From the NCBI GenBank assembly GCA_021736335.1, contig JAIPGC010000002.1, positions 57,456-121,455 on the forward strand: a stretch of 64,000 bases of DNA, given 5' to 3'. A model generated the notes under the pieces. That model ran no database searches and was not told the origin of the DNA. It saw only the letters and a program-made list of their open reading frames with translations. The translations under genes were made by a program, and so were the position numbers. This document shows, piece after piece, positions 29,384 to 47,819 of this stretch (within the stretch, counting starts at the first letter, position 1; every line of letters starts with the position of its first letter). The DNA comes from Acholeplasmataceae bacterium (GTDB lineage Bacteria; Bacillota_I; Bacilli_A; Acholeplasmatales; Acholeplasmataceae).

Positions 29384-29723
29384 GGGGATGTTCTGGATTC
29401 GTCACGGCATGGAGTAGTGTATAAGCATGCCATGGTCGCTCATGTAAAAAAGCCGAGGTTATAATAACCGGAAACCAAAATTTTTCTTACGCTGCCTAAG
29501 AACAGGTGCGAGCCAAATCTGAATTTACTTACGGTTCTGATGCGGCCCAATTCTAGTAAGTTATATTTATTATCGCTCCTAAGATAATAAAAGAACCCTT
29601 TAGGATAGTGTTGTAGCCTTTTGTTCGTTTAGGTTGCTGCATGAATTCATAAATGAAATAAGCATGTAGAAAGTATTCTATAAAGTGTCTTGCACAGGGG
29701 TTCAATTCCCCTCATCTCCACCA
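29384..29723 (+). ncRNA. ssrA: tmRNA (transfer-messenger RNA)
   Basis: 5' GGGGATGTTCTGGATTCG and 3' GGGGTTCAATTCCCCTCATCTCCACCA form the tRNA-like domain; internal tag ORF GGA AAC CAA AAT TTT TCT TAC GCT GCC TAA (GNQNFSYAA*). Confidence 0.96.
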
Positions 29724-42839: not shown

Positions 42840-43757
42840 CTATTTTTTAAACTTATACTGTCCATCCTTATCCCAAATACCCCAAAATGCGCCATATTCT
42901 CCTTCATGATTCATTTTCCATACTTCATCAAAGGATGAAAAATAAAATAGATCAATATTATCTTTTAAAACCCAATTTTGGACTTGCAAAAAGTATTGAA
43001 GTGAATTTTCATAAGAAGGTATGGCATCACCATATCTTTCACCTTTTGTTGGCCATCCGGTTTCACTAATGATGACTTTTTTTCCTCTTGCTGCTTTTTG
43101 AGCGAATCGGTACATCTCTTTCATATAATCAAGTGATATGTCTAAACCACAATATTCCCAAAATGGATAACAGTTCGCTAAAACAACATCAACTTCATCA
43201 ACAATTTCTGGATAGTTTTCAAATGTATAATATGCATCCACATATCCAACAAGAACATTTGGTACAGCTTCCTTCACTTTTCTAATATATGTGATTAATT
43301 GCTCAACCTCTATATCTTCTCTTAGAAGAACCTCATTACCTATTGCTAAAATATCTGCATATCCTGCTTTAGCAATAGCTACAGCATTATTGATTTCTAG
43401 CTCATTAGATGCTTCATCATCACTAATCCATGCACCAACGAGTGTTTTTAGGCTCTTCTCATGTGCAATTCTAGGAATGACTTCATTACCATTGGAGCAC
43501 GAAAATGTGCGAATCCATTTTGTATAGGGACGAACAATTTCTAATCTGTCAGCAATTTGCTGATCACTGATTTGTGATAATAAACTAGGATTTTGATCTT
43601 CAAGGTAAGGACTGAAACTGATGCCATGAATCTGATGAGATAAAATATCCCACATTTCATTTTCTTGTTCTAAAATGCTCTTTTTTGGAGCTAATTCCTT
43701 TTTTAGTTCGTTACGATCAACATCCAAGTATAATAATTTTTTTCTAGGTTTAGACAT
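42840..43757 (-). CDS. Glycoside hydrolase family 17-like (beta-1,3-glucanase) protein
   Basis: GISFSPYLEDQNP...VRPYTKWIRTFSCSNG...ILAIGNEVLLR (acid/base NE)...VIISETGWPTKG (nucleophile E). Confidence 0.82.
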   Translation of the reverse strand: MSKPRKKLLYLDVDRNELKKELAPKKSILEQENEMWDILSHQIHGISFSPYLEDQNPSLLSQISDQQIADRLEIVRPYTKWIRTFSCSNGNEVIPRIAHEKSLKTLVGAWISDDEASNELEINNAVAIAKAGYADILAIGNEVLLREDIEVEQLITYIRKVKEAVPNVLVGYVDAYYTFENYPEIVDEVDVVLANCYPFWEYCGLDISLDYMKEMYRFAQKAARGKKVIISETGWPTKGERYGDAIPSYENSLQYFLQVQNWVLKDNIDLFYFSSFDEVWKMNHEGEYGAFWGIWDKDGQYKFKK

Positions 43758-43927: not shown

Positions 43928-44102
43928 AAAAAAGGCCATACTGGCCCATATATCATAAGATAGGTATTCCCCATATATTAAATCACAAAACTTACTTCTA
44001 CAAAATAAACGTAAATCATTGCTTAATGAGAAAATTGAAACTGTAAATCCCAATACTAAACTCTTTAATCTAGTAAACTAAAAATCTATATATGGGGAAT
44101 AC
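43928..44102 (-). ncRNA. Candidate ~175-nt ncRNA (6S RNA-like architecture)
   Basis: Promoter TTGACA-16-TATACT; 5' GTATTCCCCATATAT pairs with 3' ATATATGGGGAATAC; apical TCATT-aagc-AATGA; terminator GGCCA-gta-TGGCC-TTTTTT; no ORF. Confidence 0.6.
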
Positions 44103-44108
44103 ACCTTC

Positions 44109-44136
44109 AGTATACTCTTTATTTGCGTAATGTCAA
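44109..44136 (-). promoter_or_regulatory. Strong sigma70-type promoter for the candidate ncRNA
   Basis: TTGACA (44136-44131), 16-nt spacer, TATACT (44114-44109) on the minus strand. Confidence 0.7.
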
Positions 44137-44173: not shown

Positions 44174-44210
44174 ATAAAAAAAAGAACAAATGCAAATGCA
44201 CTTGTTCTTT
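44174..44210 (-). terminator. Intrinsic terminator of the DUF975 gene
   Basis: Minus strand AAAGAACAAG..CTTGTTCTTT-like stem followed by a T run. Confidence 0.7.
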
Positions 44211-44225: not shown

Positions 44226-44945
44226 TTATTCATTTAAATCTGTATCTTGTTCAAATACATTTTTTGTCTTATAAAGATTGTCATATATTTCTTTGAAATA
44301 TAAAGTTCTAGCTGTTGCATGTTGAGGTACAATCCATAACCATAAAATGCCAAACGTGAATAAACCAATGAAATACCATCCTAAGTAGCTTAAATCCAAA
44401 ATGAATAAATCCATTTTGTACCCATCAGTAACTTTTTTCGACTCTTCGATGGCTTCAGTTGCTGATAAATTAGGTTGTCTAAATAATAAATAGAAACTCA
44501 TAGAATATGCATAACTTTTCATGATTCCAGGAATAATGAATAATAGTGTCCATAAAATAGTGAACAAAGTAATCAAGAACTGAAGTGCAATAGATCTTAC
44601 AGGTTCTTCTTTAATACCAACAACTAAAATTTCTTCAATAACAGGTTTCTCATTATCTGCAGTTTGAATATACATCTGTGTTGTAGAGTATAGAATAACA
44701 GCTCCAATAATAAATAATAAGACATCAAATAAGAAAACAATAGCTGGTTGACCTGGATCAATCATTTCTCTATGAAGAAATGGTGTAAATTCATATTGAT
44801 ATGTAGGGCCAAACAATTCCGCTGATATCTGAGATATTCCAAATGTGATTAATCCAAAGATTAAAGTAATTGGAATGACAGATGAATATTTTCCTACTAA
44901 CTGCGCTTTTGCCTTGCTTTTGTAAGTATAACGTGATTCTTGCAT
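44226..44945 (-). CDS. DUF975 family membrane protein
   Basis: Multi-TM; SFYLLFRQPNLSATEAIEESKKVTDGYKMDLFILDLSYLGWYF typical of DUF975. Confidence 0.82.
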   Translation of the reverse strand: MQESRYTYKSKAKAQLVGKYSSVIPITLIFGLITFGISQISAELFGPTYQYEFTPFLHREMIDPGQPAIVFLFDVLLFIIGAVILYSTTQMYIQTADNEKPVIEEILVVGIKEEPVRSIALQFLITLFTILWTLLFIIPGIMKSYAYSMSFYLLFRQPNLSATEAIEESKKVTDGYKMDLFILDLSYLGWYFIGLFTFGILWLWIVPQHATARTLYFKEIYDNLYKTKNVFEQDTDLNE

Positions 44946-45032: not shown

Positions 45033-47819
45033 TTAGGAAAGTGTTACTGATGTAAAACTTCTTGCTGCTACTGTTTTCGTAATCATTTCTCCATCAGGAT
45101 CTACGAAGAAAACTGTTTCTTCTTCATTGCTCGAATTCCAAATCATAGCTCTAACAGTGCCATTTGCGTCAATATAAATTGATGATGTAGCACGCTCATG
45201 GACCATCATATGGTAACTATCGGTTTTTTGTCCATAACTCTTTAAACCATTAATTAAATAATATGTTTGTGATAAATCGCTTGGATAATCATCATTAAGT
45301 ATCAATGTAGGGTTAAATTGATTCAATGCAACTGTAGGATCTATTAATGCTTGAATACTCCACATATTGGCATACCAAGTATCAATGGTTTGATTATTAG
45401 CACTTAAGTAATTTTGGTAGATATCAGTTAAACGTGCTCTTTCAACGTCATTTGTCGCATAATTTGATAAATACTCACCATTAGGTAACCATTGAATACC
45501 ATAGATGAATGTTGGTTTTGCTCCAAACCAAGTAGCGTAGTCATACTTGCCACCCCATATCATACCTGCAACGGATGCATAGTCACTGTATTTTGGTGGG
45601 AATATTTCTTCAGAATAATCAAACATGTATGTTTTTGCTGAATTAAGTTCTGATACGAATCCATAAATAGCAGCATCTCTTAATTCTGTATCACCTATGT
45701 TAAGTGCCCATAAATAACCACCTAACCATGATTGTAATGCTTCACTGGAGGATTCAATATTGTTTCCTTCTGCAAAGGTACCAAATCCATGAGCCCATGT
45801 ATGACCTGCCCAGGGATCAAATGATCGCAAATAAGCAAAATCATAATCATCTTTTTTCGGATACATGTAGTCATTAAGTAATAAGGATACAATATCACCA
45901 TAATCATCAGTAAATGAATCATCGTACATCGCTAGTACGCTAGCTCCATAAACTAAATAACCATGTGTGAAGCTGTGATCACTCATCTCACCAGCTGTAT
46001 TAAAGTCATTGTTTGAATAGTAAACTGTACCCCATGCTTCATTGTAATATAAATATTTATCATCACTTGTTGATGAATAAGTAAACCAATCAGCCAAAAG
46101 ATATCTCAATTTTGATATGAATTCATTCTTAAAGGTAGTATTTCCAATTTGATCTGCAATGATGATCCCTTGTGCAAGTGGATAAATCGCTTTACCATTC
46201 CAATAAGGTCCATCCTCATTTAAAAAGTTTTCTGTATCATTAATTTCTGTACGTGTTCCTAAATCTGTCAAATAGGATGTTATACTAGATTGACTAAACT
46301 CTGAATTCGTTGGCAAAGTCATTCCAGGTAATAACCCATTAAAAGATAGTTCTGTTTGAAAATGTGAACCTATAGTTGCTTTCAATTCACCTCGAACAGT
46401 CTCAAATGAATAATCAGTTAATGCTTGATCACTATTTTGATAGTGATGCGGCATCATAAACTGAACTGGTTCATTATGATTGCTTGATTTTAGATATTGT
46501 GTTGCAATATGATAATCTGTCTTAACTAAGCTATTGATATGGTCAACATTATATGTAACATCTCCAGTTAATGTTTTAGCATAAGCATGATCATGATAAA
46601 AAGATGCTTCACTCAAATATTGAATTGCGGCAACTGAGAAATAATTCTCATCTGCAAGATTCATGCTAACTCTGTTTAATAATCCAAATGGGTGATTAAC
46701 ACTACTGATATTAAATAGTGTATTGTCTGGAGTGCTAATTAAAAAGTATCTATCTGCATATATAGGCTGTCCTACTTGTGCAGGACGATATGTATCATAA
46801 CCTACATGCTTATGGACTAGTTTAACAACAATCCCATCACCGGTATATGTTGAACCGCTTATTGGGTTTCCATTAACTGTAAAGTATTCATAATTATCTA
46901 CACCATTAGAGCCCATGCTCAAATATGCTGAACTAGGATTCATGACTTCTGCAAATATATAAGGAGAACCTTGAGCATAGGTAACAACCATATGATCTTC
47001 AGGTTGTCCAGTATTTCTCATTGCAACTTTGACTGTTGTATCACTACTGTCGATGACATGTGTTGTGTAACCTAAATTTAAGGTCGTTGTTTTCATAAAC
47101 ATATCTGGTAGTGCTAGTGAAAAGTTTGCCATTGTATTAAGACCCTCTGGATTCCAATATTGGACAAATCCTGTCCCAGGGTTTGTTATCTCAACACCAT
47201 CATTATTAAATGCTGATCTAAAAGGGTTTGTGTATATACCATTGCTACCACCATAATTTGCAGCAAGCAATGATGTCCACCAACCATTTGATGGAACTGC
47301 TGATGTCAATAAATCTTGATTTAGAAGTTGTGGTTGAATTGGATGAACAATATCGGAAGCTGCCCCACTTCTATATGATCCCGCATTGGCATGAATTGTG
47401 GTTGCTGTAATTGAATTTCTTGTATCAGGATCACGATGAATCGTCCCAGCACTCACAGTCACATTTCTTGTTTCATCTATAGAATCATCACCATAAGTCA
47501 TTTGATATGATAATGAGTATGTTCCAACAGTACCATAATCTACTGTGCCTTCAACTTCAAACATATATGATATGTCATCACCTAACTGATTGATGACTTC
47601 AATATCTTTTAAAGGATCAAAATACTCATTTTGAGTAACCTCTATATCATCTAAACCTATGACTTGCTCAATTGATAATGGAAGTGTTTCATCTGTCGGA
47701 GGATTTTGTTTACCACCATCTGCACAAGCACTCAAAACAAATAATAAGATAAATATTATTAATGTAATACTTTTTTTAATCATTAAATAGACCTCCGTAT
47801 TAATCATTCTATAAATCAA
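45033..47819 (-). CDS. GH81 family endo-beta-1,3-glucanase lipoprotein
   Basis: Lipobox LLFVLSAC; GH81 motifs DHSFTHGYLVYGASVLA and GNNIESSSEALQSWLGGYLWAL; VPSNGWWTSLL N-terminal signature. Confidence 0.9.
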   Translation of the reverse strand: MIYRMINTEVYLMIKKSITLIIFILLFVLSACADGGKQNPPTDETLPLSIEQVIGLDDIEVTQNEYFDPLKDIEVINQLGDDISYMFEVEGTVDYGTVGTYSLSYQMTYGDDSIDETRNVTVSAGTIHRDPDTRNSITATTIHANAGSYRSGAASDIVHPIQPQLLNQDLLTSAVPSNGWWTSLLAANYGGSNGIYTNPFRSAFNNDGVEITNPGTGFVQYWNPEGLNTMANFSLALPDMFMKTTTLNLGYTTHVIDSSDTTVKVAMRNTGQPEDHMVVTYAQGSPYIFAEVMNPSSAYLSMGSNGVDNYEYFTVNGNPISGSTYTGDGIVVKLVHKHVGYDTYRPAQVGQPIYADRYFLISTPDNTLFNISSVNHPFGLLNRVSMNLADENYFSVAAIQYLSEASFYHDHAYAKTLTGDVTYNVDHINSLVKTDYHIATQYLKSSNHNEPVQFMMPHHYQNSDQALTDYSFETVRGELKATIGSHFQTELSFNGLLPGMTLPTNSEFSQSSITSYLTDLGTRTEINDTENFLNEDGPYWNGKAIYPLAQGIIIADQIGNTTFKNEFISKLRYLLADWFTYSSTSDDKYLYYNEAWGTVYYSNNDFNTAGEMSDHSFTHGYLVYGASVLAMYDDSFTDDYGDIVSLLLNDYMYPKKDDYDFAYLRSFDPWAGHTWAHGFGTFAEGNNIESSSEALQSWLGGYLWALNIGDTELRDAAIYGFVSELNSAKTYMFDYSEEIFPPKYSDYASVAGMIWGGKYDYATWFGAKPTFIYGIQWLPNGEYLSNYATNDVERARLTDIYQNYLSANNQTIDTWYANMWSIQALIDPTVALNQFNPTLILNDDYPSDLSQTYYLINGLKSYGQKTDSYHMMVHERATSSIYIDANGTVRAMIWNSSNEEETVFFVDPDGEMITKTVAARSFTSVTLS

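Follow-up and report, generated by a model that had tools for sequence, protein, structure and literature searches.

A new non-6S noncoding RNA family with a nearly invariant closing helix in Acholeplasma-like bacteria and some other Bacilli

Anatomy of the locus

The locus described here lies on the minus strand of a 64,000-nt stretch of DNA from an Acholeplasmataceae bacterium (hereafter the window), between a DUF975 gene (44226-44945) and a GH17 gene (42840-43757), and near a GH81 gene (45036-47819). The GH17 and GH81 genes are both on the minus strand, which suggests that a beta-1,3-glucan utilisation cluster surrounds the locus. A separate terminator-like hairpin of 13 pairs, four of them G-C, is located at 44181-44210, 3' of the DUF975 gene and 5' of the promoter of the predicted RNA, and the RNA therefore appears, in the window, to form a unit of its own.

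The original prediction for this locus was an unannotated, stand-alone, minus-strand noncoding RNA resembling 6S RNA. Inspection of the sequence confirmed the near-consensus promoter that it had described, TTGACA-16-TATACT, with a -35 box at 44131-44136, a -10 box at 44109-44114 and 11 of 12 positions agreeing with the consensus. The -10 box ends 6 nt 5' of the predicted start at 44102, also as originally placed, which is the first G of GTATTCCCCATATAT; the 5' end reads GUAUUCCCCAUAUAU / GUAUUCCCC. The intrinsic terminator GGCCA-gta-TGGCC-TTTTTT is present at 43947-43928, its stem spanning 43947-43933 and being followed by the T tract. The predicted primary transcript is 175 nt long (43928-44102), and within it a conserved RNA body of 139 nt (43964-44102) was matched at 114.8 bits by a covariance model of the family (R1). 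The 175-nt RNA folded at -48.7 kcal/mol (z -5.4), and none of 200 shuffled sequences folded as well. The gene was found in single copy in its own genome. A second copy of AUAUAUGGG, overlapping the terminator in the window, suggested a switch; this was rejected as other members of the family have no such copy.

Conservation of the RNA and its closing helix

A DNA search of 61 related genomes gave matches down to an E-value of 8e-68, and an alignment of 20 sequences was used to build the covariance model R1. Within the same genus R1 matched 18 of 20 genomes, and in other genera of the family it matched all five genomes of g15, two of three of g10 and one of three of g8, with no match in genera g11, g3 and g7. 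Another family of the same order contributed three matched genomes, and a 395-genome sample of the class three more, from other orders (two families). The remaining 132 of 161 genomes of the order had no R1 match, and the absence of the RNA from many relatives indicates that the need for it is not universal. A weak DNA match in one further genome (G021) had no arms on inspection and was rejected as chance. In genome G073 there were two copies of the RNA (L111 and L113) in 3178-bp stretches that were 100% identical, which indicates a segmental or assembly duplication.

The organisation of the gene was preserved along with its sequence. In each of the 32 aligned copies the end of the -10 box was exactly 6 nt ahead of where the helix starts, and a simple scan detected a terminator in 29 of them. 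Chance is excluded by this conservation of promoter-helix spacing in 32 homologous copies. The longest internal ATG reading frames in the homologs encoded 0-33 amino acids and were not conserved, in agreement with the original observation that no ORF is present, and the length of the RNA body varied from 128 to 240 nt; a coding gene was rejected on both grounds. The locus has the attributes of a stand-alone bacterial small RNA, namely its own promoter and terminator, no ORF and conservation as a unit. Together, the promoter, the helix, the terminator and the 32 conserved homologs strongly support the prediction of an unannotated RNA here, and we consider it very likely that the locus is a real stand-alone noncoding RNA gene.

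The most conserved part of the RNA was the helix joining its ends. In the window the 5' arm, GUAUUCCCCAUAUAUA (44087-44102), which is near-invariant in the 32 homologs, is complementary to the 3' arm, AUAUAUGGGGAAUAC (43964-43978), and the perfect 15-bp pairing of ends that had been described was located at 44102-44088 / 43978-43964. The alignment in relatives that the original prediction had called for showed that the family has a closing helix of 16 bp, with 98.6% of cells paired over the 16 pairs in the 32-copy alignment, and pairing dropped to 24-72% once the helix partners were slid against one another in a control on the same alignment. Nine of the pairs were invariant and four changed on one side with pairing kept via G-U. 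A two-sided, compensatory change was seen at one pair (U-A to G-C, in five sequences), and this may represent a single event in one clade. These pairing data support an RNA helix as read from the alignment, though with few independent changes. Base-pairing to a target or a function at the DNA level could be another cause of the invariance of the arms, the 5' arm of which contains a C-rich UUCCCC stretch.

In contrast to the whole RNAs, which had a mean z of -4.5 in the shuffle test, the interior of the family members outside the closing helix had a mean z of -0.47 (sd 1.2) and is no more structured than shuffled sequence. Folding of the alignment predicted no pairs beyond the closing helix. 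The rod shape of the original prediction was not borne out, as with a mean interior z of about -0.5 there was no conserved rod or apical duplex. Its apical hairpin, TCATT-aagc-AATGA, is present in the window at 44029-44016, but it was unused in the predicted fold and was seen in two very close relatives only. Two further internal pairings were rejected: GGGAUU/AUUUC, which was plausible by eye, was not supported by any second helix in the alignment folds, and a CUAGAUU-AAAG-AGUUUAG hairpin of close relatives failed in the wider family.

The interior is AU-rich and C-poor (3-13% C) and contains short conserved segments. A 5' loop segment, GAUUUUUAGU (44077-44086), was identified in the alignment adjoining the helix. 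In most homologs the motif GUAUUGGGAUUUAC (44043-44056) is ~47-62 nt away from the 5' end, with its GGG at ~49-64 nt. A variable stretch separates it from a second conserved motif, UUUCUUGUAU, whose YUUGU is, in most members, 26 nt away from the helix's 3' end. This variable stretch corresponds in the window to a hypervariable, AU-rich and C-poor apical loop (43992-44042) that holds the unconserved TCATTAAGCAATGA hairpin. The position of the 3' motif in the window (43980-43991) is at a constant distance from the 3' arm and is occupied by a diverged sequence, GUUUUGUGAUUU, where most homologs have UUUCUUGUAUUU. The family is defined by the nearly invariant 16-bp closing helix, the GUAUUGGGAUUUAC and UUUCUUGUAU motifs at fixed distances from the ends, and the hypervariable C-poor, AU-rich loop.

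This family is uncatalogued. No Rfam family matched the RNA above chance in the window or at 15 homologous loci, and searching the literature for the helix sequence gave no result. In a survey of noncoding RNAs that included Tenericutes, Acholeplasma is mentioned solely in connection with another motif, uORFC-13-1 (PMC8632094). We conclude that the RNA belongs to a new family, distinct from 6S RNA, that is present in Acholeplasma-like genomes and in those of some other Bacilli. The persistence of a near-unchanged closing helix across orders of Bacilli, in a family that Rfam lacks, suggests that an RNA-protein function is conserved in wall-less bacteria and their relatives, where RNA regulation is little known.

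Neighbouring genes and proposed action

The genes flanking the 32 copies fell into more than 30 similarity groups, with families including cytidine deaminase, GH2, acyltransferase, FBPase, GH5, leucyl-tRNA synthetase, 6-phosphogluconate dehydrogenase and GGDEF proteins. Because the neighbours change between genera, we suggest that the RNA acts in trans. In the mechanism we propose, transcription would begin from the RNA's own sigma-A-type promoter at the first base of the 16-bp closing helix and stop at the intrinsic terminator. The closing helix would then hold the ends together and present an open loop with the two motifs at fixed distances from it, while the apical part would serve as a variable spacer. 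A protein may bind the helix and its flanking motifs, and the RNA would act in trans within the resulting RNA-protein complex. The arms are near-unchanged while the loop drifts beyond alignment, and the sequence of the helix itself, not its pairing alone, is therefore probably read.

Judged from sequence comparison, we put the binding of the RNA by a protein at even chances. The whole reading, a new non-6S noncoding RNA family that is protein-bound and acts in trans, is in our view the best explanation, and one that is about equally likely to be right or wrong. Possible, but put forward more tentatively, is that the RNA represents a new class of bacterial RNA-protein complex. It would be an abundant RNA, of housekeeping type or globally regulatory, and separate from the 6S, tmRNA, SRP and RNase P RNAs; its invariant terminal helix and two flanking single-strand motifs would bind one conserved protein, with the loop left as a free spacer or as bait specific to a lineage.

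A trans-acting antisense small RNA would share several of these features, including its own promoter and terminator, a single copy and changing neighbours, and in it mRNAs would pair with the motifs GGGAUUUAC or UUUCUUGUAU in the loop or with the UUCCCC within the 5' arm. The loop, having no stable structure, would be available for such pairing. Gram-positive small RNAs such as RsaE reach Shine-Dalgarno sites via UCCC-type motifs, and this precedent favours an antisense role; like the RsaE-type UCCC RNAs of Bacillota, the window RNA is short, a candidate for trans encoding and equipped with a C-rich UUCCCC. However, this C-rich stretch is not in a loop but buried in a perfect helix, locked within its 15-16 bp, and conservation of sequence is higher in the helix than in the loop, whereas seeds usually show the opposite. 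A protein partner is favoured over antisense pairing because antisense action predicts a seed within the loop and a helix that varies with compensation. We regard the antisense alternative as rather unlikely, although a serious one.

A role in cis, as a leader or attenuator of the downstream gene or as an element of the 3' UTR of the upstream gene, was suggested by gene orientation. The upstream gene was co-directional in all 32 copies, at 34-323 nt and despite its differing family, and the downstream gene was co-directional in 22 of 29. In addition, a GH17 gene follows the RNA in its own genome and in two g15 genomes. Against these points, the downstream gene was convergent in 7 of 29 copies, the RNA has its own near-consensus promoter and terminator, and the neighbours come from many unrelated families. 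No conserved co-directional downstream gene or family was found among the copies, and a cis leader was rejected on account of the unrelated neighbours; we consider any role in cis improbable. In the g15 genomes (L108), the flanking GH17 gene was accompanied by an upstream GH5 gene.

Relation to 6S RNA and other RNAs

The window RNA resembles 6S RNA (RF00013, ssrS) in its length, in a closing helix at the 5' end, in having its own promoter and in an AU-rich open region. Searches with RF00013, including the Rfam covariance search that had been recommended with the original prediction, gave no match in the window even at E<=10, none in the rest of its genome, none at 15 homologous loci and none over the cut-off in 60 relatives. 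RF00013 was seen to miss diverged 6S RNAs and this negative result alone is therefore weak. The model does match in sister lineages, and six of these matches were used to build a lineage-specific 6S covariance model, R2. At E<=1, 79 of the order's 161 genomes gave R2 matches to a 6S RNA, many of them strong and some marginal, and carriers of the window RNA were among these genomes. R2 had no match in the window.

A clear 6S RNA elsewhere in the genome, named in the original prediction as evidence against itself, was found: a candidate, matched by R2 at 25 bits, lies on the minus strand at 10852-11045 of contig C35 (G000:C35:10852-11045; L175) and is 79% identical to that of relative G002. The implication that no other 6S RNA was present was mistaken. 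Textbook 6S RNAs were found elsewhere in the three distant carriers, G452, G317 and G388, with E-values of 1.3e-32, 2.7e-29 and 6.1e-25, and carrier G050 has a 6S RNA at 1.1e-6. The 6S RNAs found with R2 share a CCUAGG closing stem and the motifs GGAACCCA, GUGUGAAnGCC and GGAAUCCC, and most of eight inspected 6S loci had a membrane protein gene on one side and a peptidase-like gene on the other. Rfam does not report the 6S candidates found in the window's own family, which are identified as such by R2, motifs and synteny; this chain of evidence matters less for the three distant carriers, as classical Bacillota 6S motifs are present in them. The location of candidate 6S genes in Acholeplasma-like genomes, the window's own included, that RF00013 does not report is of interest in itself. 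Further candidates were found in Acholeplasma-like relatives (L157-L174 and L176-L179; alignment A5, model R2), several of them near a peptidase-like gene.

With 6S RNAs at separate loci in its own genome and in the three distant carriers, the window RNA does not fill the place of a missing 6S RNA. It shares no 6S motif, and the longest word it has in common with the 6S candidate of its own genome is 6 nt. Of the 6S-type rod, comprising a closing stem, a central bubble and a long apical stem, the closing helix alone is conserved, and the interior lacks structure and varies in length. Two 6S RNAs occur in some bacteria, such as the 6S-1 and 6S-2 of B. subtilis, and with this precedent the size, the closing helix at the 5' end and the AU-rich loop could be read as those of a 6S RNA or of a second paralogue, binding RNA polymerase holoenzyme like an open promoter. 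Such promoter mimicry would need a conserved duplex apical to the bubble, however, and there is none. Given this, the failure of RF00013 and R2 to match and the true 6S RNAs at other loci, a 6S identity is highly improbable, and we consider it very likely that the window RNA is not 6S and that the 6S-like reading should be set aside.

Ms1 RNA of Actinobacteria is likewise a non-6S RNA of 6S-like outline, and is reported to bind core RNA polymerase (PMC9130861). The likeness to the window RNA is one of outline, and Ms1 is found where 6S RNA is lacking whereas the window RNA coexists with 6S.

The end-to-end inverted repeats of the window RNA, closing a long interior, also resemble those of retron RNAs, in which an a1/a2 end helix closes a long internal region. 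Unlike a retron, the window RNA has no reverse transcriptase among its annotated neighbours and no structured msd-like hairpin. The least probable explanation is that the 15-16 bp inverted repeats, conserved in sequence at both ends, act solely as DNA, as the termini of a mobile element or as a protein binding site: the single copy in its own genome (where a MITE would have several), the preserved side and spacing of promoter and terminator in homologs, the G-U pairs in the helix, the lack of any copy in phage, plasmid and viral-contig collections, and the attribution of the sole duplicated case (G073) to segmental or assembly duplication all argue against it, and a mobile element was rejected. 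The window also carries a tmRNA gene (29384-29723), with the tag peptide GNQNFSYAA.
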